DNA from: Halopelagius longus
GTDB taxonomy: Archaea > Halobacteriota > Halobacteria > Halobacteriales > Haloferacaceae
Assembly: GCF_900100875.1 (NCBI RefSeq)
Contig: NZ_FNKQ01000002.1
Span: 310,001 to 374,000 of the forward strand
DNA: 64,000 nt
Direction of reading: 5' to 3'
The notes under the pieces were generated by a model. The model was not told the origin of the DNA and did not search any database. It saw only the letters and a list, made by a program, of their open reading frames with translations. Of the stretch, positions 1,066 to 17,122 are shown piece by piece. Position 1 is the first letter of the stretch. Each line of letters starts with the position of its first letter. The position numbers were made by a program, and so were the translations under genes.

Positions 1066-1785
1066 TCAGTTTACCTGTTCTTTCACCTGCTTCATACTTG
1101 CGTACCAGTCTACGTCATGACGGTCAGCTATTTCTTTGAACAACGGCTTGTCTCCGTCATGCCGCTCAAATTCTCTTACTTGGATTCGTACCTCATATTC
1201 TTCTGGAGTCTCTATCATCCGATTCTGAGCAACTGCTAAACAACCAAGTGCAAGAGCTATTGGAGCAGAATTCGGTTCCTCGTTATCGTCATCGTCTATG
1301 TTTCCCTTGATATTTCCAAGACGATTGAAAGCGCGAGCATCGACCTTCATAACAAGCCGCTTTGCGTCTCTAACGATAGCATCAGAAAGATTGAGCGTAT
1401 CTCCAAGGGCTTCAGTCAGTGACAGCTTATCCTTAATTGCACTCTTCTTTCCACCGTCTCCGTAGTACCCATGCTGCCACATCCACATCCGCTTCCTCTG
1501 GGCTTTCAAATCTCTTCCATCCATCGCGGTTGTTGGAAGAGGATTTCCATGTGCGTCTTTCCGATTTGCATTGAACGTCGTCTCGCTTGGACGGCGCTTC
1601 CATCCTTGCGACGTTCGACCGCTGATTTCAGGCTCGTCATACCGATGTTTCGGCCTGGTCGCATCGATAAACGCTTCATCAACGCTACCATCGCCTGATG
1701 ATGCTACAACTGGCTGTCCGTCTGCAGTTTTCCCAATCTGTTCACCGACTTCATAGTCATGTCTGTATGTGTTTGTTGTTGACAT
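1066..1785 (-). CDS. TFIIB-like (TFB-related) protein of the integrated element
   Basis: This 239-residue protein shows an order of segments like archaeal TFB but lacks its N-terminal zinc ribbon: the only cysteine is at about residue 182. Residues 60-103 resemble the B-linker region, with KDAHGNPLPT followed by a basic and tryptophan-rich segment (QRKRMWMWQ) where TFB has KDAYGxxL and RLRKWQ. Residues 118-190 resemble the first cyclin repeat (LxLSDAIVRDAKRLVMKVDAR, then APIALALGCLAVAQN). Residues 213-238 resemble its last helices (FKEIADRHDVD). There is no room for a second full cyclin repeat. It is the last gene of the leftward chain, 52 bp after the previous stop. The fold assignment is by eye; a promoter-selecting or host-interfering role is inference. 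Confidence 0.5.
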   Translation of the reverse strand: MSTTNTYRHDYEVGEQIGKTADGQPVVASSGDGSVDEAFIDATRPKHRYDEPEISGRTSQGWKRRPSETTFNANRKDAHGNPLPTTAMDGRDLKAQRKRMWMWQHGYYGDGGKKSAIKDKLSLTEALGDTLNLSDAIVRDAKRLVMKVDARAFNRLGNIKGNIDDDDNEEPNSAPIALALGCLAVAQNRMIETPEEYEVRIQVREFERHDGDKPLFKEIADRHDVDWYASMKQVKEQVN

Positions 1786-1837: not shown

Positions 1838-2512
1838 CTACCGTGCTTTTCGTCTCGGCTCCTCGATAGTGACGGTCGGGCCACCGAATTGCAAGTCATC
1901 CTCTTCAACAGTTTTCGTGGTGCCTTTTGACCGCTCTCCATCAATGAAACCGACTTCAATGAGTGCCTGACGTACTTCTGCAGGCTTGACATTCCACACT
2001 CTCTTAGGGCCGTCAAGAGTGGCCTTCAGTTCCTTGGTGAGATAGTCCGCAATCTCGTTGGTTCCCATTCCGCAATCAACGTATAGATGGTGCAGAATAC
2101 GTGCATCTTCAAATACTGGTTCTCGTAGGTTCTCAAGTGGGATATCTTCTTCAAAGGGCAGTGATATGGTCTCTCTTGAGACTTCTATATCAAAACTCCC
2201 CTCGTCAGGCAATTGGATTCCATGCAGTTTGACCGCTTTTCCAATCCTGTCTGCATTCGTCCCAATTTCATCGGCCAAATCCTCTTCTGTATTGATTAAC
2301 TCATTGTCCGCTAATTCTCGGAGTTTGTCCCCTGCTGTAGGTTGAAGGAGAGAATCACCTTGGGGGTAGTCGTCATAATCATCTCCGACCAGAGGAAGGC
2401 CTTGGTTGTATCCTAATTCAGGGATAGGAGGGATTGCTTCCTCGACCTCTTTCGGTCGGTTCTCACTGGGGTTGCCATCCCTCTTCCGAGCTTGAGTAAT
2501 CCCTTCGAACAT
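1838..2512 (-). CDS. Helix-turn-helix protein of the integrated element
   Basis: This protein has 224 residues if it starts at the ATG at 2512. That ATG overlaps the upstream stop as TGATG and is preceded by a clear GGAGG a few bases away, so it was preferred to a longer frame opening at 2554. The N-terminal third is acidic and proline-containing. About residues 60-90 (LADNELINTEEDLADEIG) and 130-180 (ARILHHLYVDCGMGTNEIADYL, ending VRQALIEVGFIDG) look like two helix-turn-helix segments of the type seen in haloarchaeal virus and plasmid proteins. It is translationally coupled to the 98-residue gene upstream. The likely role is DNA binding; the target is unknown. Confidence 0.55.
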   Translation of the reverse strand: MFEGITQARKRDGNPSENRPKEVEEAIPPIPELGYNQGLPLVGDDYDDYPQGDSLLQPTAGDKLRELADNELINTEEDLADEIGTNADRIGKAVKLHGIQLPDEGSFDIEVSRETISLPFEEDIPLENLREPVFEDARILHHLYVDCGMGTNEIADYLTKELKATLDGPKRVWNVKPAEVRQALIEVGFIDGERSKGTTKTVEEDDLQFGGPTVTIEEPRRKAR

Positions 2513-2808
2513 CACTCTCCTCCCCCGTAGTTGGAAAGCGGAGTAAGGTACCAAAGACTGGGCTCTCCGAAAGAGGACTCGGGGGCCGCGATTCCGAGTA
2601 CCACGGACCCAGTAGGTAGTTCAACTGTACTGCTATCCTCTATATTGGCCGTAAGAACAGCATACGACTCTTTCTCACCTCCCTCTATAGCAGTCAACTG
2701 AATTGAATTACCCGTATTGTGCTCAATATTTTTGCACTTCAATTCACCTAATTCAGTTATATCGCCAGATTCGACTGTTTTACTAACAGTATTATATTCG
2801 GTAGTCAC
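2512..2808 (-). CDS. Small hypothetical protein of the integrated element
   Basis: A 98-residue, Ser/Thr/Glu-rich, probably beta-rich protein with no motif I recognise. It begins with GTG at 2808, inside the last codons of the 41-residue gene (GTGA overlap). Its own stop overlaps the next start as TGATG. This double coupling is the main support that it is expressed. There is no signal peptide or membrane segment. Confidence 0.5.
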   Translation of the reverse strand: MTTEYNTVSKTVESGDITELGELKCKNIEHNTGNSIQLTAIEGGEKESYAVLTANIEDSSTVELPTGSVVLGIAAPESSFGEPSLWYLTPLSNYGGGE

Positions 2809-2930
2809 GCTTTGTACCCTCGATTGAACGTCTGTCGGTCTGTCTCCTCATTCTTCTCTCTACTCTGTTCATCAGTCTCTTCTCCACAATCGACAACTGT
2901 CTCGTCAATTTCGAACTCTTCAGTTGCCAT
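2805..2930 (-). CDS. 41-residue acidic microprotein
   Basis: The frame starts MATEEFEIDETVV and ends NRGYKA. It is dominated by Glu, Asp, Thr and Lys and has one cysteine. Its ATG at 2930-2928 overlaps the stop of the 56-residue gene (TGATG), and its stop overlaps the GTG start of the 98-residue gene. A GGGGGTGA sequence lies just before the start. The size is too small for family assignment; the evidence is the continuous coupled arrangement. Confidence 0.45.
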   Translation of the reverse strand: MATEEFEIDETVVDCGEETDEQSREKNEETDRQTFNRGYKA

Positions 2931-3100
2931 CAGAACGTCACCCCCTCTTCATTATTCGAAGATTTTTCCGTCAGAAGAGCATGACATGCTTCTCTCACAA
3001 CAACGCCATATGGTACATTCTCATCACCGAATGATTCTTGTCGAGTGGTGCGGAGAAGGTCCTTTTCTTCGGCTGACAATCGAATTCGCTTGTTTCTCAT
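2930..3100 (-). CDS. 56-residue basic N-terminus protein, first gene of the element's leftward chain
   Basis: The frame begins MRNKRIRLSAEEKDLLRTTR, followed by FGDENVPYGVVVREACHALL and an acidic tail. This pattern (basic beta strand, helix, then a VPYG-type turn and helix) resembles short haloarchaeal plasmid and virus proteins that may be ribbon-helix-helix-like. It leads the chain 56-41-98-224 residues, all coupled by overlaps, so a regulatory role over the chain is plausible. The function is not established. Confidence 0.5.
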   Translation of the reverse strand: MRNKRIRLSAEEKDLLRTTRQESFGDENVPYGVVVREACHALLTEKSSNNEEGVTF

Positions 3101-4248: not shown

Positions 4249-4863
4249 TTAGCGCATAGCAGCACCAATCCGCTTCTCTGTGGGAGCATCTAAGTAAGGT
4301 TCAATAGCCGAATAAGATGACCACCCGCCCACAGCCATCATCGTTCTAACGTCTACTGGGTCAGGCCGCTCTACGAGGTGCCACGTAGCCCAAGAGCGGC
4401 GTAAGTCGTGAGAGGAGACATTATTCCAGCGATTGTTCTCGGCCTCCTCAGCAATCGTCTGAGCCGCTTCACGGACCCACCGTCGCACTGAGGACGGTGA
4501 GACAGAGACAAGCGGCTCTTCATCGCTCAGGCCTCGCTCACGGACGTACTTCGAGACATTTCGCTCAGTCTCCTCTGGCATCCAGGCGTCACGCTTCTTC
4601 GGTTTCCCGCCATCTGTATTCTTCCCCGCTATCTCGAATAACCAGCACTCTCCTTCCTCCGACCAACGTATATCTTCCATCGCTACTTTCGGTACTTCAT
4701 CAGAACGCAAACCACACTGAGTCATCAGTTGAATAGCTATCTCGCGTTTCCAATCCACAGTACCTGCTGCGTGTTCTAACTTCGAACATTCGTCCCGTGA
4801 GAGCCAACACTTCACTTGCCCACTACCAGCTTCTTGGAGAGAGACCATACACAAATTGTCCAA
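4249..4863 (-). CDS. Tyrosine recombinase (integrase), catalytic domain only
   Basis: The product is 204 residues, and the catalytic residues are readable: Arg53 in GLRSDEV, His152 and Arg155 in SHDLRRSW, Trp181 in GGWSS at the usual H/W position, and Tyr190 in EPYLD as the nucleophile. Lysines around 88-90 may supply the beta-hairpin lysine. Most phage-type integrases exceed 300 residues, so the N-terminal SAM-like core-binding domain is missing. Either the protein is a minimal integrase of the kind found in some haloarchaeal temperate viruses, or it is truncated. No upstream frame continues it. It lies about 2 kb from the tRNA-Arg that ends the element. The start is taken at 4863; MVSLQEAG at 4848 is an alternative. 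Confidence 0.8.
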   Translation of the reverse strand: MDNLCMVSLQEAGSGQVKCWLSRDECSKLEHAAGTVDWKREIAIQLMTQCGLRSDEVPKVAMEDIRWSEEGECWLFEIAGKNTDGGKPKKRDAWMPEETERNVSKYVRERGLSDEEPLVSVSPSSVRRWVREAAQTIAEEAENNRWNNVSSHDLRRSWATWHLVERPDPVDVRTMMAVGGWSSYSAIEPYLDAPTEKRIGAAMR

Positions 4864-5078: not shown

Positions 5079-5525
5079 TCAATCTCTCCAGTTGAAGTCT
5101 TGGTACTGATTGTGGTGCTGGTAGACGTGCCAAGAGCCATTGCCATTTTCACGGTATTCCTCTGCTACGATTGATTCCTGTTCTCTCGCCTGTTCTTTAG
5201 AATTGTACCATCGTAGCTCAACTAACTCAATCGGTCGATATTGTTGTGTAAACTTTGCTGCTCCTGTGAGGCCTCTATTGTGCTCATACAGTCTTTCAAT
5301 TATTCGAATAGATGAACCTACGTAGAACAGACGTTTGCTTGTTAGACCTTCGCCAACTCGGACCATTGGACCCTCATGTGGCTGTTCGATATTAGATATT
5401 TTATTGGGGCACTTGCATTCTATAATATAGACACAGGGTCGTAACCTATCGACAAGATATCTAATTTTATCCATTTGTTCTGATTTTCTCGCTTCTCTGT
5501 CGGGGAGTGGGTAGTTATCGCTCAC
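5079..5525 (-). CDS. GIY-YIG domain protein
   Basis: This 148-residue protein has the GIY-YIG nuclease core. CVYIIEC is the first strand, FYVGSS the second (YIG-like), and R-x5-L-x2-HN follows with the conserved arginine and histidine region. Next come AAKFTQQYRPIELVEL and a QAREQESIV helix that includes the metal-binding glutamate. The first 30 residues are charged. This is a stand-alone domain as in small mobile-element nucleases rather than UvrC. Location beside an integrase suggests a role in the biology of the element, for example DNA cleavage, but the substrate is unknown. Confidence 0.7.
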   Translation of the reverse strand: MSDNYPLPDREARKSEQMDKIRYLVDRLRPCVYIIECKCPNKISNIEQPHEGPMVRVGEGLTSKRLFYVGSSIRIIERLYEHNRGLTGAAKFTQQYRPIELVELRWYNSKEQAREQESIVAEEYRENGNGSWHVYQHHNQYQDFNWRD

Positions 5526-5683: not shown

Positions 5684-6595
5684 ATGAAAAGTAACCACGA
5701 ACATTATTTCAGTAACTCTTATGAGAATTATATTTTGGACGACGATGACGTAATTGTGTATGAAAAATCAAAGAAACTGGCTAAATATACCGACTATCCT
5801 GGTATGGTCGCTGCAGCAGGTCTTTCTCTTGGAGTACTAGGACTGGGGGTAAATATTCTATCTTACCTTCGTCACTTTTTAGCAAGTGAATTCTCAATAT
5901 TAACATTCATTAACACTACCCCTGCTCCACTTTCAGAGATTATCCGTTTCGGTGGCCTTCTCATAGTGAGCTTTGTTTTCACTACCGCATTGGTTATGGT
6001 TGGTTTGAAATTTCAGTCCACTGCCAAAGGTACTGATATAACTCAAAAGAAATATCGTCTTAATATTCTTGCAAGAGGGCTCTCTAAATTTCATGAAGGT
6101 AGCCACGAACAAGCAATCTCTCAATTATCTAAATTTGATGAATTAGAAAATACGCATATTTCCTCTTTTATTGAATCCAACGTAGAACAGTATCTCAAAA
6201 ACTTAGAGAAGGAAGATAGTGATGAATATCTTGAGAAGACCTTTGAAGATTTCCTCTGTCTGCTTATGGAAGAAGTGTCAAGTAAAAAGACCCCACGTGA
6301 GGCGCAATTAGAAATCATTACTAATTCAGATTCACTTGAGTACTACAATATTCAAAACGAGGACAAACAGCGTTCTGTAACCTACCTCAGTATCATCAAG
6401 GAATCACTTTCTGAACTTGCTCTCAAAAGCTTCGTTCCTAACTTCTGGTTATTATATCTCTGCTCGGCAGTTGTTGGGATTGCAACTTTCAATTTCATAG
6501 ACAAAACCCTCGGTATTCTGACTGTGACTATACTATTAACTGGACTACAAATCCACGATAGGAGGAATAGGACTGGTGAAGAAGATGACCAATAG
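5684..6595 (+). CDS. Hypothetical membrane protein of the integrated element
   Basis: The start is taken at MKSNHEHYF (5684), six codons inside the open frame, giving 303 residues. There are hydrophobic segments near residues 42-63 and 86-107, then a roughly 150-residue polar, acidic, helical middle (about 110-255). One or two further membrane segments lie near residues 260-290, before a charged C-terminus. The topology suggests a cytoplasmic middle domain held between membrane hairpins. I recognise no family. It is the last gene of the AT-rich element before the tRNA. Confidence 0.55.
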   Translation: MKSNHEHYFSNSYENYILDDDDVIVYEKSKKLAKYTDYPGMVAAAGLSLGVLGLGVNILSYLRHFLASEFSILTFINTTPAPLSEIIRFGGLLIVSFVFTTALVMVGLKFQSTAKGTDITQKKYRLNILARGLSKFHEGSHEQAISQLSKFDELENTHISSFIESNVEQYLKNLEKEDSDEYLEKTFEDFLCLLMEEVSSKKTPREAQLEIITNSDSLEYYNIQNEDKQRSVTYLSIIKESLSELALKSFVPNFWLLYLCSAVVGIATFNFIDKTLGILTVTILLTGLQIHDRRNRTGEEDDQ

Positions 6596-6875
6596 AGTAT
6601 GAGTCTGAGAATTCACTGACTGAAGTCGAGTGGTCTGTATATTCAACGCACGTTTTGTGGTCTCAACCCTGTTTGTGGGGATTTCCCCAGGAGCGGTGCA
6701 GTACATTAGGCACATGAGGAAATCCCATCGGCGTGATGCGCCTCATATGTGTGTTGGTTGAGTCAGAGTAAGATACCCGCTGTAGATGGAGAGATTTTTA
6801 TTGGTGGGTACACTGAGTTAGGATGCGAAGGACAGAGAACTGCCAGACGGCATGTGAATGTCCTAAAATAGACGA

Positions 6876-6950
6876 GGGCGCTTAGCTCAGTCTGGACAGA
6901 GTGCTTGGCTTCGGACCAAGTTGCCGTGGGTTCAAATCCTGCAGCGCCCA
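6876..6950 (+). tRNA. tRNA-Arg (anticodon TCG)
   Basis: The acceptor stem GGGCGCT (6876-6882) pairs with AGCGCCC (6943-6949), followed by discriminator A6950. The anticodon arm is CTTGG-CTTCGGA-CCAAG, giving anticodon TCG for CGA codons. The T arm has loop TTCAAAT. CCA is not encoded. The 280 bp before it (6596-6875) hold no gene; an AT-rich stretch near 6862-6870 and another near 6792-6800 could be promoter elements. Base composition rises sharply right after the gene, so it marks the edge of the AT-rich element. Confidence 0.93.
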
Positions 6951-7045
6951 TCATTCTGCGACGAACGAAGTGAGGAGCGAATGATGTACCGCGAAGGATT
7001 TGAACGAGACCGAGGTTCTGCGCGAAGCGCAGGTTCTCGGGCGTA

Positions 7046-7067
7046 GTTCACAATCCTGCAGTGCCCA
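7046..7067 (+). repeat. Degenerate copy of the tRNA-Arg 3' end
   Basis: This 22-bp segment closely matches the T-arm and acceptor end of the tRNA (6930-6950), including CAATCCTGCAGTGCCCA against AAATCCTGCAGCGCCCA. It sits about 100 bp downstream in the same orientation. The interval 6951-7273 has no gene; it holds this remnant and the first copy of the repeat listed at 9831. Such remnants are the usual trace of recombination at a tRNA attachment site. Confidence 0.65.
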
Positions 7068-7273
7068 CTTCTCGATTGGAATCCACTACTAGCGGAGACG
7101 CATCGCTCCCACGTCTCGTGAGACGCATACGGGTTCAACATCGGTACTCACCGCCGGAAACGCACCCGGTCCGCCGTCGATGACCTACCGGTACGTTCGG
7201 CGCTCGGCCGAGGACGGGTCCGGCCCGGAACGGTCAAAAATACGTCGAACGGAACCGTCCTCCGCGACCGCCG

Positions 7274-9754
7274 TTACGTTCCCGACGAACCCCCTTCGCT
7301 GTCCTTCTTCTTCTCGTCGTGACCGTTCTTCCTGCCGGTCGTGCTATTGTCTTCGATCGGAATGTTCTCCTCGCCGTCGAGCCCGTGCCAGACGCCGTTA
7401 TCGCCGACGATATCGGCGCGGCCTCGGTCGTTGTCGACGAACAGTCGGACGATCGACGCCGGTCCGACCTCGAGTGTCACCGTGCCGTCGCCGGCGACGT
7501 CTTCGACCGCGTGCTCGACCGCGTGGTTCGTCGGTTCGTCCCACGAGGACGGTAGCTCGTGGGGCAGCGGACGTTCCGCGGTGGCCGGTTTGAGCTGGAC
7601 GATTTCGACCGACGCGTCGGCGTACCGGTCGCCCAGTTCGACCGTCACCTCGCTCGACGCGCGGAGGTTGCGGTTGGTCAGGAACACGGCCAGTTCCTTT
7701 CCGCGTCGGTTCTGCATCGCGGCGGCGTCGACGTACGAGACGTCGTCCATCGGACCGACCCGCGGTCCGGTGTCGGGGAGGTCACGGCTAGCGCCGCTCG
7801 TGGCGACGTCGACGGCGTGCCACTCGGCGTCGAGTTCGAAGACGGCGGAGTACAGTCCGGTCACGGAGCCGTCGGGACGGAGGGGATTCGGGTCCGGCGG
7901 ATGATCGACCGTTTTCATCGGAACCCACGACTTGATCGGAACCCACGTCTGTGCGGCCCACTTGACGGTATCGGTCTCCCGAATGCACGCGTTGAGGACG
8001 CCCGCGACGTAGGAGGCGCCGGGCATCGTCTCCGGACCCGGATACGGCGCGCCGTCAGCGACGGTCGGGAAGATTCCGACTTCGCTGAGGTTGACGTAGA
8101 AGTCGTCGCCGTAGCCGTGTTCGTCGGCGAGCGCTCCGAGCTCGCCGAGTTGTTCGCCCAACTGGGTCGCGGCCATCACGATCACTTCGCTGTAGTCCCA
8201 GTCGTCGGCGTCGTGTTCGTCTTTCCACGCTTCGACGTCCTCGGCGCTGTCTAAGCCCCACTGGTAGCGGTGGATGTTCAGCCCGTCGAGCTGATCGGGC
8301 GACAGTTCGTCCAACAGCGTTTCGTTCCACGGGTTGTCGTTGTGTTCGGCCTCGGCCGGGTCCCAGCCGCTCGCGATGATCGTGATCGAATCGTCGACCT
8401 CGCGCATCGCCGCGGCGTACTCGTCGAAGCCGATCCGCTCGTCGGAGCCGGTGGCGTACTCCGAAGCGTCGGACGTATGACCGAACTGCCAGTCGCCCCA
8501 GACCTCGTTTCCGACGCCCCAGTGTTCGACGTTCCAGGCGTCAGTGAAGCCGTGTTCGGCCCGTAACGCCCCCAGCTCGGTGTCGGTCGAGCCGTTGACG
8601 TACTCGACCCAGTCGGCGGCGTCCTCGGGGAGGATCTGCCGTTCTTGGCCCCACTCCGGCGCGTTGTCGTGCCAGCCGATCGTGATTTCGGGAACGAGGT
8701 CGGCCACCTCGCAGAGTTCGAGGTACTCGGCGGTCCCGAAGAAGTTCGGCTGCATCCCCTGCCAGGCGTGATTGAACCGAGGCGTCCGCTCCTCGAGCGG
8801 GCCGATCCCGTCGCGCCAGTTGTACTGGCTGGTGACGTTGCCGCCGGGCCACTTCAGCCACGTGCCGTTTTGGTCTTCGAGGAGTTCGATCGTGAGCGGG
8901 TTGAACTTGCCGTTGACGGCGTCGTCGGCGGCGAGTTCGATGAAGTCGATGTCGAAGTGTCCCTCACCCTCGGCCGTGAACTCCACGGCGTACTGGCCGT
9001 ACGGCGTCTCGACGTCGGCGACGGCGCCGCCCACGTATTCGTCGCCGCTCTTCTCCTCGAGTTCGAGCGTCGGCTCGTGGCGCGTCCACTCGCCGGTGAC
9101 GTCCACCTCCGTCGAAGCGAGGACGTCGCCCTCGAGCGTCGTGATCGAGGCCGCGACGGCGTCTACGTCGCCGCGCACCGAGAAGCCGAGGTCGTAGCCC
9201 AGCGTCCGGTAGTCCGGCAGGACGATTCGCTGTTTGATACCGCCGGTCGAGCCGTCATCGACGGCGATGCGCTCGTAGCCGACCGCCCCGTGGGAGGCCG
9301 ACCCGCCTGCGACGCGCTCGCCGTCGGTCCGGTGTTCGAGGCTCACTCCGGTCTCTCCCACCGGCTCCCACGGGTACGGGAGCGTGTCGTGACGCTCGAC
9401 CTCGTAGAACGTATCGACCTCGTTCGCGTCGAACCACTCGTCGGGCGTCCGCCAGAACGTCGGGTTCATCACGTGCAGCGAGTAGACGCCCGGATAGATC
9501 GTCGCGTCGCCGTAGTGTTCGTTCAGACGGCCGAACAACGTATCGGGGACCGCATCCGCCGACCGAGCGTCGGTATCGACGGTCACCGTGTTCTCGACCG
9601 CGTCCCCTGACGTCGCCGACACGAGGCCGGACCCTAGCCCGACCGCCGACCCGGCGACCAGCATCGATTGTGCCGCGAGAACCTGTCGCCGAGAAACGCC
9701 GTTTCCGTCCGTCTCACTGTCTACGTCGTCGTCGTTCGTTGGATCTACCGTCAT
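7274..9754 (-). CDS. Secreted GH51-type alpha-L-arabinofuranosidase
   Basis: This 826-residue protein has a Tat-type signal (SRRQVL at 21-26, then a hydrophobic stretch to about residue 46), so it is probably exported folded. A beta-rich carbohydrate-binding-like segment spans about 120-275. The catalytic barrel follows, with WPGGN and YNWRDGIGP at 302-319, GVGNEVWG at 413-420 (Glu417, predicted acid/base) and LSEVG at 557-561 (Glu558, predicted nucleophile). A C-terminal beta-sandwich and an acidic, lysine-containing tail end the protein. This arrangement fits family GH51, which releases arabinofuranose from plant polysaccharides. No sugar transporter or arabinose pathway gene is adjacent. 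It stands alone between tRNA-remnant repeats, which suggests acquisition by transfer. Confidence 0.82.
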   Translation of the reverse strand: MTVDPTNDDDVDSETDGNGVSRRQVLAAQSMLVAGSAVGLGSGLVSATSGDAVENTVTVDTDARSADAVPDTLFGRLNEHYGDATIYPGVYSLHVMNPTFWRTPDEWFDANEVDTFYEVERHDTLPYPWEPVGETGVSLEHRTDGERVAGGSASHGAVGYERIAVDDGSTGGIKQRIVLPDYRTLGYDLGFSVRGDVDAVAASITTLEGDVLASTEVDVTGEWTRHEPTLELEEKSGDEYVGGAVADVETPYGQYAVEFTAEGEGHFDIDFIELAADDAVNGKFNPLTIELLEDQNGTWLKWPGGNVTSQYNWRDGIGPLEERTPRFNHAWQGMQPNFFGTAEYLELCEVADLVPEITIGWHDNAPEWGQERQILPEDAADWVEYVNGSTDTELGALRAEHGFTDAWNVEHWGVGNEVWGDWQFGHTSDASEYATGSDERIGFDEYAAAMREVDDSITIIASGWDPAEAEHNDNPWNETLLDELSPDQLDGLNIHRYQWGLDSAEDVEAWKDEHDADDWDYSEVIVMAATQLGEQLGELGALADEHGYGDDFYVNLSEVGIFPTVADGAPYPGPETMPGASYVAGVLNACIRETDTVKWAAQTWVPIKSWVPMKTVDHPPDPNPLRPDGSVTGLYSAVFELDAEWHAVDVATSGASRDLPDTGPRVGPMDDVSYVDAAAMQNRRGKELAVFLTNRNLRASSEVTVELGDRYADASVEIVQLKPATAERPLPHELPSSWDEPTNHAVEHAVEDVAGDGTVTLEVGPASIVRLFVDNDRGRADIVGDNGVWHGLDGEENIPIEDNSTTGRKNGHDEKKKDSEGGSSGT

Positions 9755-9830
9755 CCACCGGCGAATAGATCATTATAGTACTAAATGATTACTAGATGTC
9801 ATAAAAGACGAATACGAGACCGGAGCCTTC

Positions 9831-9879
9831 CTGCGACGAACGAAGTGAGGGGCGGAAGATGTGCCGCGACGGATTCGAA
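9831..9879 (+). repeat. Second copy of the tRNA-downstream repeat
   Basis: The first 20 bases (9831-9850) are identical to 6956-6975, directly after the tRNA, and the next 29 differ at about six positions from 6976-7004. Both copies are in the same orientation and bracket the GH51 gene. They read as duplicated attachment-site flank. The surrounding interval 9755-10075 has no gene. Confidence 0.7.
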
Positions 9880-9910
9880 TCGAGGAGCGAGCGGTAGCGA
9901 GCGACCGAGG

Positions 9911-9947
9911 TTCGAACTCTGAAGCGCTCATCATTCTGCGAGGAACG
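9911..9947 (+). repeat. Degenerate tRNA-Arg 3' end with its downstream flank
   Basis: This segment matches 6931-6967 (tRNA T-loop to 17 bases beyond the gene) at 31 of 37 positions by my alignment, including an unbroken TCATCATTCTGCGA-like block beyond the acceptor stem. It is in the same orientation as the tRNA. With the copy at 7046 it suggests at least two past recombination events at this tRNA. Confidence 0.7.
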
Positions 9948-10075
9948 GACGTGATGCGTCAAAATTGGGCCAACGGCGTGCGCCCTGACGAGGGAAGCCC
10001 GCACAGCGGAGCGAGCAGGAATCTTCGGCGTGGAATCGAGAATATACGCACGATGGTGGATTCCGTTCTGGCTCG

Positions 10076-11467
10076 TTATGATTTGGAGACTCGCATTCGG
10101 ATATCCTCAGCGGGCCGCAGCGTCGTCGCCATGTCTAATTCGGGCTCGGGGTCGGACAGGAGTTCGAACTCGACCGACTGTGCGACGATTGCGAGAACTA
10201 TTTTCAACTCCAGCATCGCGAACCGCATCCCGATACAGTGGCGCGGTCCGCCGCCGAACGGGAAGTACGCGTAATCCGGCAGTGAATCCTCGAATCCTTC
10301 GGTCCAGCGGCTGGGATCGAAGCTCTCGGGGGCGTCGTACCAACGCTCGTCGGTGTGAACGTAGAACGGAGGGAGGGTGAGCCTCGTTCCCTTTGGAATT
10401 CTGTATCCACCGAGTTCGGTGTCTTCCGTGGCTTTTCGTAAGAGAATGAACGCTGGCGGGTACAACCGAAGGGACTCTTGAATCACTCGTTCGGAGTACG
10501 AGAGGTTATCGAGGTCCCCTAGTTCGGGCGCTCCCCCGCCGAGGACGGAACTGTGCTCCGCGTCGAGACGGTCACGCACTGACGGGTTCTTCGCCAGTTC
10601 GAGGAACGTGTAGGTTAGTGCCAGTGAAGTGGTCTCGTGGCCGGCGAAGAGAAACGTCACCATCTGGTCGCGGATCTCCGTCTCGGACATGACGTTCCCG
10701 TCGTCGTCCTCGGCGGTCAACAGTAGCGACAGTAGGTCGTCGTACTCGTCTGCCCGTCCGCGCCGTTCGTCGATCAGCCCTTCGACGAAGGAGCGAAACT
10801 CCGAGAGGACCCGTTTGTACCTCCGGTTCTCGGGCGTCGGAATCCACATCGGGAGGAACGTCGAGACGCCGTCGATACTGCCTCGGTCGTTGAACGTCTC
10901 AGCGAATTCGGTCACGATACCGGTCTCCTCGCTCAGTTTTAGATCGAACAGTGACCGAGTCAGCACGTCGAGTGTGAGCTTCGAGAACGCTCGGTTGAGG
11001 GCTATCTCCTCGCCGTCGTCCCACTCGTTTATCATCTCGGTAGCCCCTCGTGCCATCGTATCGCCGTAGCTCCGAATCCGCTCGACCGTGAAGGCGTTCT
11101 GGATCGTCGTTCGCTGGCGGCGCCACTGTTCACCGTCGGTCAATACGAGGCCCTCCGGGGCGAACTCTCCCCCGAAATCCTCGAAACCCCACTTGGCGTA
11201 CCGGTCGTAGTCGACCATCAACACGCGTTCGATGAGTTCCGGGTGGAGGACCGTACAGAACTTCATCCCGGGGAGGCGATAGCTGACGACGTTCCCGTAC
11301 TCGCTCATCTCGTCGTAAAACCCTCTGGGGTCCCGTACGAGTGAGCGAACGTTGCCGACCACCGGGAGGCCGTCGGGACCGGGAGGCGTCTTCGAGGGGA
11401 GGTCTTCGCCGCCTCTCGGTGCTGACCCTTCGGAGGAGTCGCTGGACCCTGAGCCTATATTAGACAT
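10076..11467 (-). CDS. Cytochrome P450
   Basis: The start is taken at MSNIGSGSSD (11467), giving 463 residues; an open upstream extension lacks P450 character. Standard motifs are present: proline-rich hinge TPPGPDGLPVVG (28-39), oxygen-binding I helix AGHETT (275-280), K helix ESLR (331-334), and heme loop FGGGPRHCIG (404-413) with axial ligand Cys411. There is no membrane anchor, so it should be cytoplasmic. It resembles the haloarchaeal/bacterial CYP type that acts on lipids or terpenoids, but the substrate cannot be deduced. No ferredoxin or reductase gene is adjacent. It stands alone between the repeat zone and a pseudogene. Confidence 0.92.
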   Translation of the reverse strand: MSNIGSGSSDSSEGSAPRGGEDLPSKTPPGPDGLPVVGNVRSLVRDPRGFYDEMSEYGNVVSYRLPGMKFCTVLHPELIERVLMVDYDRYAKWGFEDFGGEFAPEGLVLTDGEQWRRQRTTIQNAFTVERIRSYGDTMARGATEMINEWDDGEEIALNRAFSKLTLDVLTRSLFDLKLSEETGIVTEFAETFNDRGSIDGVSTFLPMWIPTPENRRYKRVLSEFRSFVEGLIDERRGRADEYDDLLSLLLTAEDDDGNVMSETEIRDQMVTFLFAGHETTSLALTYTFLELAKNPSVRDRLDAEHSSVLGGGAPELGDLDNLSYSERVIQESLRLYPPAFILLRKATEDTELGGYRIPKGTRLTLPPFYVHTDERWYDAPESFDPSRWTEGFEDSLPDYAYFPFGGGPRHCIGMRFAMLELKIVLAIVAQSVEFELLSDPEPELDMATTLRPAEDIRMRVSKS

Positions 11468-11677
11468 AGTAGAATAGTGGCCTTCCGAGTGAACAGAGGT
11501 TTCCCCGATACACTTCGCCTGTTTAAATACCCAGAGCGGAATATCGCACGACTTGCGGTGCGTTACTTGTACGACAGACTGAACCAGTCCACGTGGATGC
11601 GGCATCCGATGTGAAATTTCCTCACCGCTTCGGAGATAACGAACCGAGCAGAACTGTACGCGTAGAATCTATCTCGG

Positions 11678-12203
11678 GAGGACGTGCAGTTCGCCCTGTT
11701 CTACGTCGACGGCGATATCGACGCCTATCGCGGCCGTATCGACGAAGTCGACCCGGTCCGGTGGTGCGAGCTCACTCCGATCAAGGAGAACGAGTTTTAT
11801 TCGTGCGTCTGTCAGAAGTACACCGAGTGAGAGACGGCGTTCTTTCGGGCGTTCGCCGATCTGAGCCTCGTCGTTCTTCCTCTCCTCGTGTACAGCGCCG
11901 AGGGGTGGCTCGACGTGACTGCTGTCGGGAGAGACGAGGCGCAGACGAAGCTGGTCGACACGCTTGAGCGACGCGCGAGCATCGAAGTGGACGTTCGAGA
12001 AATCGGCACGACCGCCGAATAGGGACGGTGACGGGGTGCTTGACGGAGCGCCAGTTCGAGGCGATCAAACCCCCGACCGAGATAGGGTAGTACTCGGTAC
12101 CGCGCCGGGCGGCGTTGTCGGCCGTCGCGGCGGAACTCGGGGCCGCCCACTCGACTACTTCGGAGCTACCGCGGCGTGGAGAATCGAGCCCGATGTTTCG
12201 AGT
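11678..12203 (+). pseudogene. Broken Bat/HTH-10 family transcriptional regulator
   Basis: Reading from 11678 gives EDVQFALFYVDGDIDAYRGR, continuing to VCQKYTE, then an in-frame TGA. The same frame resumes with ETAFFRAFADLSLVVLPLLV through to IGTTAE and a TAG. After a frame change, TTG at 12040 opens LTERQFEAIKPPTEIG, stop, then YSVPRRAALSAVAAELGAAH and ELPRRGE. This is the C-terminal HTH-10 domain of bacterioopsin-activator-like regulators, where intact proteins read LTDRQxEAL...GYYEVPR...VAAELGV. At least three stops and one frameshift, with no intact N-terminus, show that the gene is dead. The preceding interval 11468-11677 holds nothing else I can support. Confidence 0.85.
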
Positions 12204-12466
12204 GATCGATTCCTCCGACTCGTTCCGTGGCGTAACCGATGTCGCCCGAGACTCTCGAGTGGTGGTGCGTGCGTTACCGAAATGACGGTTGATACTCCCG
12301 CGGCGAGTCACGGGTACTATTCATGACACGATATCCGACAAAAATTCGGCGCTGAGTGCGCGCTGTGTGTACAGTCGGTCGACACCGGTCGCTACAGGAC
12401 GGAGCGAACTACATCACACCGACCGGCATCCGAATCCCTAAATGATAGAAAACAGTGAAATTAGCT

Positions 12467-13624
12467 ATGGGGGAGAGTCGAATGCGGAGGACGCCGTCGC
12501 GTATCATCGCGGCTCTCGGCGCGTTGTTGTTTCTCTCGGCCGTCATCCACCACTCGTTCGAGATTCTTCGCATCGACGAATTCGTCGGTCCGATAGCCGC
12601 ACTTCTCGTGGACGGTCTCCCCGCACTCGGCATCGTCTACGCGGGATACTGGCTCTCGAAGACGGATCTCACAGAAGAGAACCAGCGGACGGTCGTTACG
12701 TGGTGTCTCATCGGCCTCGCCCTCTTCGTCACCGTGATCGGATTGACCCTCCTCATCCGCTGGATCGAGGACCGGACCGTAATCGAACCCCAGTTTACCC
12801 TCCTGATCGCCGCCAACGTGGGTAGCCTCGCCGGGTTCACCGCCGGCTATTACAAAGCCCGAATGGAGTTGGAAGCCAGACAAGCACGGAGAGCAAAGCG
12901 GGAACTGGAGGAGGTAAACCGCCGACTCGAAGCGTCGAACGAGCGTCTCGACCAGTTCGCGTACGTCCTCTCCCACGACCTGCGGGAGCCGCTACGTATG
13001 GTGTCCAACTACCTCCAGCTGCTTGAGGATCGTTACGCGGACGACTTAGACGAGGACGCCCGGGAGTTCGTCGCCTTCGCTGACGACGGTGCCGACCGAA
13101 TGCGGTCGATGATCGACAGTCTGCTCGAATACTCCCGTATCAGCACGCGTGGCAACCCACTGGAGCAGACCGACGCCGACGCGGTTCTCGACGACGCCCT
13201 CACCGACCTCCAACTGCGGATAGCGGAGACCGATGCGAGAGTTACGGCCGACGACCTGCCGACAGTGCGTGCGGATCCGGACCAACTCGCGCAGGTGTTC
13301 CGCAACCTTCTCACGAACGCGCTTCGGCACAGCGGGGATGAGCCCCCGCGAGTTCACATCGGAGTGGAACGTCTGGAAGACGCGTGGCGGTTCTCGGTCC
13401 GCGACGAAGGAGTCGGCATCGATCCGGAGTCTCAAGACCGGATTTTCCAGATGTTCGAGCAAGCCGACGGCGAGGAAGGGAACACGGGCGCAGGTGGCGT
13501 CGGACTGGCCATCTGCGAGCGCATCGTCGACCGTCACGGCGGTGACATCTGGGTCGAGTCCGAACCCGGTGAGTGGACGACGTTCTCGTTTACGCTTCCC
13601 GGGGCTCACGACGGTGAAGGGTAA
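12467..13624 (+). CDS. Membrane-anchored sensor histidine kinase
   Basis: The ATG at 12467 was preferred to an upstream GTG (12455) because a TATA-like CCTAAAT lies about 27 bp before it, fitting a leaderless transcript; the product is 385 residues. Four hydrophobic segments (about 12-32, 43-61, 78-97 and 110-130) form the N-terminal half with no PAS or GAF domain. A short coiled coil leads to the H box SHDLREPLRMV (phospho-acceptor His170), then the N box NLLTNALRHS, G1 DEGVGI and G2 GAGGVGLAI. No response regulator is adjacent, as is common for orphan haloarchaeal kinases. The stimulus is unknown; the compact membrane part suggests sensing within the bilayer. Confidence 0.88.
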   Translation: MGESRMRRTPSRIIAALGALLFLSAVIHHSFEILRIDEFVGPIAALLVDGLPALGIVYAGYWLSKTDLTEENQRTVVTWCLIGLALFVTVIGLTLLIRWIEDRTVIEPQFTLLIAANVGSLAGFTAGYYKARMELEARQARRAKRELEEVNRRLEASNERLDQFAYVLSHDLREPLRMVSNYLQLLEDRYADDLDEDAREFVAFADDGADRMRSMIDSLLEYSRISTRGNPLEQTDADAVLDDALTDLQLRIAETDARVTADDLPTVRADPDQLAQVFRNLLTNALRHSGDEPPRVHIGVERLEDAWRFSVRDEGVGIDPESQDRIFQMFEQADGEEGNTGAGGVGLAICERIVDRHGGDIWVESEPGEWTTFSFTLPGAHDGEG

Positions 13625-13710
13625 CCGCTTGCTGTGAAATTCCGGAGCCGAACCCGAGCCTGCAGCGCCTCTGCTCCTTCGCCGAACGAGGCGCTAAGAC
13701 GTTCTCCTTC

Positions 13711-14346
13711 TCACTCCCCTAGCGGATTCTCCAACGCCTCCGCTATCGGTTCGTCGCCGGAGCCGAGTTCGAACGTCTTCCCGTGCGTGCTTTCGGCCGT
13801 GAGCGACGCGGCGAGCGTTCGAGCCACGTCCTCGCGCGGAATCTCCGCGCTCTCGCGGTCGATCGTCTCCCCGACTTCGACCCGTCCGGTTCCCTCGTCG
13901 TTCGTCAGAGGGCCGGGGCGGACGATAGTGTACGTCAGGTCGCTGTCGCGGAGGTACTCGTCGGCTTCGGCCTTCGCGCGCAGGTACTCCCGGAGCGCTT
14001 CGGGACTGTTCTCGGGTTGGTCGGCGTTGATGGAACTCAACATCACGAACCGCTCTGCGCCCTCCGCTTCCGCGGCGTCGACGATGTTCATCGCGCCGTC
14101 GCGGTCGACGCCCCACACGTCGTCGCCGCCGGACCCCGCGGCGAAGATAACCGCGTCGCGCCCTTCGACGGCGTGGGTCACGTCCTCGGTCAGGTCGGCG
14201 ACGACCGGTTCGGCGCCGAGCGATTCGATGTCTTCGACCTGCGCCTCCTCGCGGACCATCCCGTAGGCGTCGTGGTCGCTCTCGGCGAGGACTCTCGTCA
14301 GATGTTGCCCCACCTGCCCGTGCGACCCTGCGACGAGCACGTTCAT
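13711..14346 (-). CDS. Atypical SDR / NAD(P)-binding oxidoreductase
   Basis: This 211-residue Rossmann protein starts MNVLVAGSHGQVGQHL, the GxxGxxG nucleotide-binding loop of extended or atypical short-chain dehydrogenases (NmrA-like). ADLTED and VIFAAGSGG mark the next cofactor-contacting strands. YLRAKAEAD contains the Tyr-x3-Lys pair, and IVRPGPLTN follows as in SDR a5 proteins. It should be a soluble NAD(P)H-dependent reductase or redox-sensing protein. The substrate cannot be told. It lies on the same strand as, and about 130 bp downstream of, the methyltransferase gene. Confidence 0.85.
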   Translation of the reverse strand: MNVLVAGSHGQVGQHLTRVLAESDHDAYGMVREEAQVEDIESLGAEPVVADLTEDVTHAVEGRDAVIFAAGSGGDDVWGVDRDGAMNIVDAAEAEGAERFVMLSSINADQPENSPEALREYLRAKAEADEYLRDSDLTYTIVRPGPLTNDEGTGRVEVGETIDRESAEIPREDVARTLAASLTAESTHGKTFELGSGDEPIAEALENPLGE

Positions 14347-14480
14347 ACTCCGGAATTCGACCGGAGTTCCGAAGAACCTGTTGCCCGGTCACGCGCCGGG
14401 TCGTAACCGCTCTCGACCCGTCCGTCTCCCGCGTTCGGCGAGCGCAGTCCGGCGTTCGGCAGATTGCCGACGGCTCTCCC

Positions 14481-15137
14481 CTACCGCGGGCGCGCCTCTA
14501 TCGTGGTGATGATTCCGAAGATGGCGGTGTCGGACCGGACGACGGGCAGATCCGCCGCCGCGACGAGTTCCAACGGCTCTTGGGTCCACCGACAGCCCAT
14601 CTTCCGGTAGTGGGCGTCGGCGCGCCACTCTTGGAAGCGCGCGAACGGCCCGAAGTCGCTCTTGCCGTGTTCGACGAGCAGAATCCGCCCGGAGGGCTTA
14701 CAGACGCGACTCATCTCCCGAAGCGCGGCGACGGGGTCGGGGAACGTGCAGGTCGAGAGCGACGAGACGACGGTGTCGAACTCGTCGTCGTCGAAATCGA
14801 GGTCCTGCGCGTCCATCTCGCGGAGAGTTCCGTCGCGTCCGAGTTCGTCGAGTTTCGCTCGGGCGTTCGCCAGCATCTCGGGACTGACGTCGATGCCCAC
14901 CAACTCGACGGACTCCGGCAGGTACCGGAAGTTCGCGCCCGTGCCGCAGGCCACGTCGAGAACGCGACCCTGTGCGGTGCCGAACTGCCGCCGGCGGTAC
15001 CGGCCGGTGAGAAACCGGTCGAGCCAGTCCATCCGCGCCATCCAGTCGGCGTACTCCGCGTACGACGCCCGAATCTCCTCGACGGACATCGGTCGCCGCT
15101 CCGCCGGCGCGGAGTCTGCCGGTTCGGTCGGACTCAC
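14481..15137 (-). CDS. Class I SAM-dependent methyltransferase
   Basis: The start is GTG at 15137 with GAGAGGA just upstream; the product is 218 residues. Motif I, VLDVACGTGANFRYLP, binds S-adenosylmethionine. VGIDVSPEML is the acidic post-I strand, and DTVVSSLSTCTFPDP plus a LLVEHGKSDFGP loop follow, as in UbiE/MenG-like and other small-molecule methyltransferases. The N-terminal helix SVEEIRASYAEYADWMARMD resembles the quinone or phospholipid methyltransferase group. Menaquinone modification is possible but not shown by the sequence. Confidence 0.85.
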   Translation of the reverse strand: MSPTEPADSAPAERRPMSVEEIRASYAEYADWMARMDWLDRFLTGRYRRRQFGTAQGRVLDVACGTGANFRYLPESVELVGIDVSPEMLANARAKLDELGRDGTLREMDAQDLDFDDDEFDTVVSSLSTCTFPDPVAALREMSRVCKPSGRILLVEHGKSDFGPFARFQEWRADAHYRKMGCRWTQEPLELVAAADLPVVRSDTAIFGIITTIEARPR

Positions 15138-15280
15138 GAGTGATTCCTCTCTTCCCTAAGGGGTCTACGGGCGCATAAAGATTGACGGGAAGTTGACAGA
15201 CGTTCACGTTTCGGCGGTCGTTCCGCGGGGCGGAGACGACGAGACGCGCGAACGGGGCGCCTCAAGGGTGACGGCGTCGG

Positions 15281-16696
15281 TTAGAGGAACGGAAGGATTC
15301 TCGCCACCACCGGAAGGACGCTCGACAGCACCACCGTCACGACGAGCCCGGTGAGGGAGATAATCGTCGTGAGGGCGGTCCACGTCCGGAGCGTCTCGCC
15401 GATGGTGAGGCCGCCGATCTCCTTGACCAGCCAGAACCCGGAGTCGTTGTACCACGAGAAGATGTTCCCGCCGGCCCCGATGGCCATCACGAGGAACGCC
15501 GGGTGCACGTCCAGTTGCGACACCTGCGGAGCCATGATGCCGGCGGTGGTGAGCATCGCCGCCGTCGCCGACCCCTGCGCGATGCGCACGATGGCGGCGA
15601 TGAGCCACGCGCTGACTATCAGCGGGATGCCGATGCCCGCGAGGACGCCGGTGATGTAGTCGCCGATGCCGGACGCCGCCAGCAGCGCGCCGAACGCGCC
15701 ACCCGCGGCGGTAATCGCGGCGATGTTGCCACCGCTTCGCAGCGCCTCGGTCAGCTCCTCGGTCCACTCCTCGCGGTCCAAGTCGTTGTGACGGTAGTAC
15801 GTGTGCGCGGCCGCCATCGCCGCGATGGTGAGCGCCACGTTCTTGTTGCCGATGAATTGGACGTACGGCCGAATCGCCTCCAGCGTCGGGAGCACGTCCC
15901 GGAAGGAGTTGACGAACGTCAGCGCGCCGACCAGCACGACGGCGAGCAGAATCGGAAGCAGCGACTCGAACATGCCCGGAAGCGAACTCGTGTTCCGGTT
16001 GGCCAGCTCCTCCAGTTCCTCCGTCGTCGTCGCCATCGTGTCGCGGAGGGGGATGTCGAGCCGCCTGTTTATCCAGCGCCCGTACACGATGCCGGCCAGA
16101 AACGCCGCCGGAAGGGCGGTGGCGACGCCGACGAGAATCGTCATCCCGAGGTTGACGCCGATTTCGGCCGCCACCGCGAGGGGGCCCGGCGTCGGCGGGA
16201 CGAACACGTGCGTCGTCGCCGCGCCCGCGCCGACCACGACGATGAACAGGGTGTAGTCGCGGCCGACCCGAGCGCGCATCGACCGCGCGAGGGGTGCCAT
16301 CAGGTAGAATACGCTGTCGAAGAAGACGGGGACCGCGAGCACGGTACTGCTCCCCCAGAGGGCGATGTCGGAGTTCTCCCGACCGAGTGCGCTCTGGAAC
16401 CCGCGGACGACGCGCTGGGCGGACCCGCTTTCGAGCATCGACTTTCCGATTATCGCGGCCATCAGAATCGGTATGCCGATGCCGGCCATGTTCTCGCCGA
16501 ACGCGGCGGCGACTCGGCTGGCGGCGTCGGCCCACGCGAAGTCGGGCACGAACACCGCGTTGATGATGCCGACGAAGAACGCGGCGATGATTAGCCCGAC
16601 GAACGCCGGGAGGTCCCACACGACCAACAGTAGTATGACCGCCGCCAACGCCAGGATGAACGTCAACAGCGGACTGTGTGCAAACTCTATTGCCAT
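15281..16696 (-). CDS. GntP family gluconate-type permease
   Basis: The start is MAIEFAHSP at 16696 (471 residues). There are about twelve to fourteen membrane segments. A GntP signature region includes FVPPTPGPLAVAAEIGVNLG, and GSATAAMLTTAGIMAPQ and GNIFSWYNDSGFWLVKEIGG lie near the C-terminus. This family imports gluconate or related sugar acids with protons. No gluconate kinase or dehydratase lies nearby, so the substrate is open. A TATA-like AATTATACTT about 40 bp before the start on the minus strand fits a promoter in the AT-rich divergent region. Confidence 0.88.
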   Translation of the reverse strand: MAIEFAHSPLLTFILALAAVILLLVVWDLPAFVGLIIAAFFVGIINAVFVPDFAWADAASRVAAAFGENMAGIGIPILMAAIIGKSMLESGSAQRVVRGFQSALGRENSDIALWGSSTVLAVPVFFDSVFYLMAPLARSMRARVGRDYTLFIVVVGAGAATTHVFVPPTPGPLAVAAEIGVNLGMTILVGVATALPAAFLAGIVYGRWINRRLDIPLRDTMATTTEELEELANRNTSSLPGMFESLLPILLAVVLVGALTFVNSFRDVLPTLEAIRPYVQFIGNKNVALTIAAMAAAHTYYRHNDLDREEWTEELTEALRSGGNIAAITAAGGAFGALLAASGIGDYITGVLAGIGIPLIVSAWLIAAIVRIAQGSATAAMLTTAGIMAPQVSQLDVHPAFLVMAIGAGGNIFSWYNDSGFWLVKEIGGLTIGETLRTWTALTTIISLTGLVVTVVLSSVLPVVARILPFL

Positions 16697-16872
16697 GGTT
16701 TGTTGTGATACTCTTTCCACTGCACGTTCGAAGTATAATTATCTATTGGGCGATAGTATTATATGTGGTAATTATTGTAACACCAATCCATGAACTGGCT
16801 GGAAAATAATGAAAGAACTTCACTTTTTGCGCCTCCGAGGGAGGGCGTGCGTCTCCGAAGATAGACATTGAA

Positions 16873-16915
16873 CAATTGGATCCATTTTCGAATTTACTGC
16901 CTGTACGTCCAATTG
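16873..16915. promoter_or_regulatory. Inverted repeat in the divergent GntP / MFS intergenic region
   Basis: CAATTGGA (16873-16880) is the exact inverse of TCCAATTG (16908-16915), with 27 bases between. It lies midway in a 426-bp AT-rich interval (16697-17122) that otherwise has no gene and must hold the promoters of both transporters. Paired half-sites could bind a dimeric regulator, possibly looping; the regulator is not encoded nearby. Confidence 0.35.
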
Positions 16916-17122
16916 ATTCTTTTATAGTGGTCGAACGGACGAATTCTCCTAGTATCGGTTAATACACACCCAACAATCGAATCTCCATTGGTGTCTCTAC
17001 ACACGTCTCAGGAGTAGCCTTATACCGGTCGAATGTGCGCTTCGAGTCGGAATGTGCGCGATACTGGCGCAGAAAGTGCGGAGAAAAGTATATGATTGTC
17101 CACTATTCGGGGGCGGTCGGAG

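Follow-up and report, generated by a model that had tools for sequence, protein, structure and literature searches.

Genes and features of the ORF239 locus

The window analysed here is a stretch of 64,000 nucleotides from the haloarchaeon Halopelagius longus (contig NZ_FNKQ01000002.1, positions 310,001 to 374,000). It includes part of an AT-rich island (41–53% GC, compared with 65–72% in the left flank) that holds ORF239, the subject of this analysis, together with the features listed in Table 1. The 5′ part of a tRNA-Arg gene, its first 49 nucleotides, occurs a second time at contig position 308156, beside an integrase of 386 amino acids; this copy and the integrase lie about 1.8 kb to the left of the window start. 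The tRNA-Arg duplication beside a recombinase therefore delimits an element of about 8.8 kb, extending approximately from window position -1845 to 6924. A proposal made earlier from the DNA letters alone (the sequence-only reading) had placed ORF239 on an integrated element, and the GC contrast and the duplication confirm that it is carried by an element integrated at the tRNA-Arg gene.

Several other genes of the element recur elsewhere. ORF223 has no match in Pfam, and tblastn finds it close to the TFB-like gene in two further genomes, hence in three in all; it could be a functional partner of that gene. The 204-residue recombinase, the second of the element, has no N-terminal domain.

Table 1. 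Positions of ORF239, its predicted parts and other features of the element (window coordinates unless a contig is named).
Feature	Position	Strand	Basis or remark
Full-length tyrosine recombinase/integrase, 386 aa	L002 12311-13471, left of window		Pfam PF00589, E 3e-13; adjoins attachment site
ORF239, putative zinc-ribbonless single-cyclin TFB/epsilon-like protein, 239 aa	1066..1785	-	sequence, alignment, hhalign, HMM
Predicted single cyclin-like helical repeat, residues 111-238	1072..1455	-	alignments, AlphaFold, Foldseek
TFB linker-like segment and basic/Trp helix, residues 69-104	1474..1581	-	hhalign, joint alignment, model
N-terminal GDGS...D motif, residues 31-41	1663..1695	-	resembles motif of annotated epsilon proteins; noticed post hoc
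ORF223, conserved neighbour	1838..2509	-	tblastn
ORF98, neighbour	2512..2808	-	tblastn; homologue near L116 copy
ORF56, small protein	2930..3100	-	tblastn; homologues near L115 copy and near zinc-ribbon-bearing copy (L121)
Short tyrosine recombinase (204 aa), the element's second	4249..4863	-	PF00589, E 9e-10; homologues
GIY-YIG nuclease of the element	5079..5525	-	PF01541, E 1e-9; homologue near zinc-ribbon form
tRNA-Arg(tcg), right attachment site	6876..6950	+	first 49 nt duplicated beside integrase

Homologues and their surroundings

A whole-genome search of 392 sampled genomes from the order of the host yielded six true homologues of ORF239, one with 52% identity in the alignment (P0001) and five with 28–34%. 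The reading frame proposed earlier for a product of 239 residues is present, and its conservation among these homologues shows ORF239 to be a real gene. The weaker matches of the same search (L009 onward, E >1e-4) were chance frames wherever they were inspected.

At least three of the homologues lie near integrases. One genome (G338, contig L115) carries homologues of ORF239, ORF223 and ORF56 as well as of both recombinases, flanked by two copies of tRNA-Ser; another (G104, L116) has homologues of ORF239, ORF223 and ORF98 with an integrase, and a third (G173, L118) has an ORF239 homologue with two short recombinases. In L115 the related element occupies positions 8597-17102 and has a tRNA-Ser(tga) gene on each side; its ORF239 homologue lies towards one end and its integrase towards the other, and its recombinases form the same long and short pair as in the ORF239 element. 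Neither tblastn against phage records nor scans of viral contigs returned a homologue, so at that sensitivity no known virus carries one.

Domain organisation of ORF239

In TFB, the zinc ribbon docks on the polymerase, the linker contacts the polymerase and helps promoter opening, and the two cyclin repeats bind the TBP-DNA complex, the second of them reading the BRE through a helix-turn-helix. ORF239 resembles TFB and TFIIB in a linker segment (ST/TT-I/F...DA-G...RLRKWQ) followed in register by a predicted first cyclin repeat; it differs from them in what lies on either side. A single Cys is found among its 239 residues and there is therefore no N-terminal zinc ribbon of the CxxC...CxxC type. 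The chain stops after one repeat, both in AlphaFold models and in the joint alignment, so that ORF239 has neither a second cyclin repeat nor the BRE-reading helix-turn-helix which that repeat carries in TFB. Both absences agree with the part list that the sequence-only reading had drawn up. The position taken in TFB by the zinc ribbon and reader is occupied in ORF239 by the GDGS...D motif, a reader not being clearly recognisable, and residues 90-104 form a helix in the AlphaFold model. An acidic insertion at about residues 160-172 is particular to ORF239, its homologues being without it.

Relationship to TFB

Profile searches lead from the ORF239 family to TFB. An HMM built from seven members was searched against 2,319 ORFs and found its own superfamily and epsilon-like proteins first, followed almost exclusively by TFBs, the best host TFB having an E value of 3.8e-4. 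Because this set of ORFs is enriched in TFBs, an unbiased search of the whole 3.87-Mb host genome was added, in which the best non-self match was also a TFB (C3:49049-49333, E 0.013). When the family was aligned by hhalign with 29 diverse archaeal TFBs, it scored 43.1 (E 1.8e-5); 100 column-permuted TFB profiles gave a null with a mean of 13.8, a standard deviation of 2.4 and a maximum of 22.9, and the match to the TFB-type linker thus exceeds 100 of 100 permuted controls. The aligned stretch comprises, in register, the TFB linker and, from cyclin repeat 1, helices H1-H2: TTFNANRKDAHGNPLP...RKRMWMWQHGYY in ORF239 corresponds to TTTIDWKDKDAYGRSLS...MHRLRKWQERIR in a host TFB, and H1-H2 follow. 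The order of parts that had been aligned by eye (a B-linker-like segment, a basic and Trp-rich helix, one cyclin repeat) is recovered by this alignment. Taken together, these comparisons make a strong case that ORF239 is homologous to TFB. In a tree, the branch that sets TFB apart has a length of 5 changes per site, which is too long to identify the TFB lineage of origin or to distinguish one ribbon loss from several.

Two further proteins, P0009 (L053 1447-2235, minus strand) and a relative in L065, carry a zinc ribbon ahead of one cyclin-like repeat. Their single-cyclin domain matches the ORF239 family in hhalign with an E value of 1.3e-9, above every permuted control, and their ribbon matches TFB zinc ribbons at 5.6e-9; in Pfam the same ribbon resembles two families without reaching their curated cut-offs, the A2L zinc ribbon (5e-4) and Zn_Ribbon_TF (3e-3). 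By these profile matches the two proteins bridge the ORF239 family to TFB. They share the ORF239-type single-cyclin domain with the family but differ from ORF239 in having kept a TFIIB-type ribbon and in lacking the RLRKWQ-like linker helix. The L065 copy (L121) lies near homologues of two genes of the ORF239 element, ORF56 and the GIY-YIG nuclease. The L053 and L065 proteins stand midway from TFB to the epsilon-like family, and such an intermediate is unlisted.

The predicted fold was compared separately. A scan of genome contigs found only two eligible homologues (Haloferax elongans and Natrialba swarupiae), so the alignments given to AlphaFold had three rows. The resulting ORF239 model is weak (pLDDT 52, pTM 0.45), with helices that follow the order of a cyclin repeat before the chain ends; the homologous domain of Haloferax elongans is modelled at pLDDT 72 and pTM 0.65, most helices reaching 78-89. 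Foldseek searches of the PDB with both models were led by TFIIB, TFB and Brf2, with cyclins next, at a best E value of 0.06. For 5wh1 the probability was 0.99-1.00 and the TMq of the Haloferax elongans model 0.52, with no E value passing 0.001. The structural comparison suggested by the sequence-only reading thus returned the anticipated TFIIB/TFB lead and cyclin helix order, but fell short of a match below 0.001. We hold the predicted cyclin fold of ORF239 with moderate confidence. On its own, the fold evidence is suggestive of a TFIIB/TFB-type cyclin repeat; the fold ranking, the HMM and hhalign results and the zinc-ribbon bridge are together convincing for kinship with TFB.

Relationship to RNA polymerase subunit epsilon

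A tblastn search with one of the homologues reached a Halorussus plasmid protein annotated as 'DNA-directed RNA polymerase subunit epsilon', and profile comparisons place proteins of this annotation among the nearest relatives of ORF239. In hhalign, the ORF239 family matches annotated haloarchaeal epsilon (rpoeps; e.g. WP_253521611.1) at E 3.8e-13, over the linker, the cyclin region and beyond, and a second epsilon-like group (group B) at 1.3e-16, in both cases above all permuted controls. A separate profile comparison with annotated epsilon gave 4.8e-10, annotated epsilon and group B match each other at 3e-31, and an independent epsilon profile reciprocally recovers a member of the ORF239 family at 3.9e-7. 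Aligned directly with TFB, annotated epsilon scores 16.9 in hhalign, which is inside the null and not significant, so the chain from epsilon through the ORF239 family to TFB hangs on its middle links. Throughout, the homologues are called 'epsilon' after their database annotation, and their tie to the purified Halobacterium protein OE_1279R rests on names.

Like ORF239, annotated epsilon has a single cyclin-like repeat, no zinc ribbon and a similar N-terminal motif of the GDG-x-[KR]D kind. A motif of the type GDG[SAQ]...[KR]D is common to many epsilon-like and family proteins and absent in TFB; in its strict form, GDG[SAQ]-x(6-9)-[KR]D, it occurs in four homologues and in the L050 protein, ORF239 having GDGS...D without the basic residue. 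The motif was chosen post hoc in both forms. In contrast, identity to ORF239 is only about 25%, and a C-terminal extension of epsilon, GRNPxRDPNLP, is absent from ORF239 and its homologues in the alignments. ORF239 is not an epsilon orthologue, because of this low identity and the missing extension, nor is it a TFB, because two defining parts are missing; by sequence it represents a new form, carried by a mobile element, of the TFB-derived kind.

Epsilon-like proteins of about 250 amino acids are widespread across other haloarchaeal families. A search of the genome of the ORF239 host found no epsilon, and a close epsilon-like protein occurs in only 3 of 99 sampled genomes of its family. Epsilon has been described from a subset of haloarchaea, rpoeps of Hbt. 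salinarum being OE_1279R; Halobacterium polymerase is efficient on native templates when epsilon is among its subunits but not otherwise, and the biological relevance of the subunit has been called enigmatic (PMC8305020). Co-purification with polymerase and stimulation on native templates are known only for Halobacterium epsilon; ORF239, in contrast, sits on an integrated element in an epsilon-free host and is known here from its sequence.

Possible functions of ORF239

We propose, with a probability of about 0.6, that ORF239 is a TFB-derived member of the epsilon superfamily that acts as an epsilon-like accessory factor of RNA polymerase. An ancestral TFB would have shed both the zinc ribbon and the second cyclin repeat while retaining its linker and one repeat, giving rise to ORF239 within a haloarchaeal superfamily to which the proteins annotated as epsilon also belong. 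The protein may contact the host polymerase near the site of the TFB linker and first cyclin repeat, and the element may thereby supply an epsilon-less host with a stand-in epsilon-like subunit. Such a subunit would help the polymerase to open promoters, or redirect that opening, most likely in favour of the element's own genes and promoters.

The main rival is a decoy, in which the linker and cyclin repeat take the place of TFB on TBP-DNA or on the polymerase and host promoters are shut or biased. A TFB without its ribbon and BRE-reading repeat does look like a dominant-negative form, and ORF239 is carried by a mobile element. The list of parts thus suits a decoy. The record of epsilon does not: the widespread haloarchaeal relatives are annotated as a polymerase subunit that is reported to be stimulatory (PMC8305020). 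With the BRE-reading repeat lost, promoter targeting alone would also be hard to explain, and we consider a decoy unlikely. The sequence-only reading had leaned this way, towards a protein that binds promoters or TBP without recruiting polymerase. Its description of a zinc-ribbonless, single-cyclin TFB relative on an element is upheld by the HMM, hhalign, fold and bridge results, but its functional idea is not supported, the second repeat being absent; a direct role at the polymerase is at least as likely, given that the closest relatives bear the annotation of a polymerase subunit. The epsilon kinship, the zinc-ribbon bridges and the epsilon-less host therefore lead us to favour an accessory factor over a decoy acting on TBP only. 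Less probable again is a regulator specific to the element, in which the cyclin repeat serves to bind DNA or proteins and the core transcription machinery is left untouched: cyclin repeats are general scaffolds and the conserved ORF223 is nearby, but a retained, polymerase-contacting TFB linker would be unexpected in a free DNA-binding module.

Two deflationary explanations have very little probability. Searches with ORF239 alone gave nothing usable in Pfam, NCBIfam, PHROGs, PADLOC or direct comparison with PDB sequences; the lack of any Pfam, NCBIfam or PDB sequence match above threshold, with Foldseek E values above 0.05, could be read as a chance or compositional likeness of an unrelated helical protein to TFB. 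Against this stand an in-register profile match far beyond shuffled controls, the top non-self rank of TFB in the host genome, the zinc-ribbon-bearing homologues and a fold ranking headed by TFIIB, TFB and cyclins. TFB is about 320 amino acids long, and the shorter ORF239 might be taken for the decaying remnant of a full TFB; the same architecture is, however, conserved in open frames at 28–52% identity in seven genomes, each of a different genus, and because of this conservation we regard decay as refuted.

More tentatively, and with the odds somewhat against it, the accessory-factor reading of ORF239 may be extended to epsilon itself. Epsilon might be a TFB minus zinc ribbon and second cyclin repeat that turned into a polymerase subunit, and mobile epsilon-like versions, some of them ribbon-bearing, might reprogram polymerase in epsilon-less hosts. 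The open-access literature that was searched, subscription journals being mostly outside its scope, holds no statement of epsilon as a TFB-like protein or reduced TFB. To judge by its title, a 1983 study by Madon and Zillig that is cited in PMC2121645 reportedly dealt with Halobacterium polymerase epsilon and native-template transcription. The proposal would offer a testable answer to the question, dating from 1983, of what the extra epsilon subunit of this polymerase is, and also bears on how epsilon could let polymerase transcribe native DNA: this activity would be understandable in a protein that kept the linker of TFB, the part associated with promoter opening. A mobile element with a stripped general transcription factor would be an uncommon route to the takeover of archaeal transcription.

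Further members and neighbouring genes

The haloarchaeal plasmid records NZ_CP119793.1, NZ_CP035121.1 and NZ_CP100002.1 contain divergent proteins that bear the name RNA polymerase subunit epsilon, so epsilon-like genes are plasmid-borne too. A divergent member of the family with the GDGS motif, P0010 (L050 1372-2121, minus strand), lies in the single-contig genome G336; its linker starts ARTTFYAEDA. In Haloferax elongans (L113; 8755-9834 on the plus strand and 6278-7230 on the minus strand), the gene immediately before the homologue encodes a 5-hmdU DNA kinase (HMUDK_hel, E 9e-69) and is a DNA modification gene of the viral type; a TIR protein resembling ThsB and a SLATT/2TM-like protein are encoded nearby.
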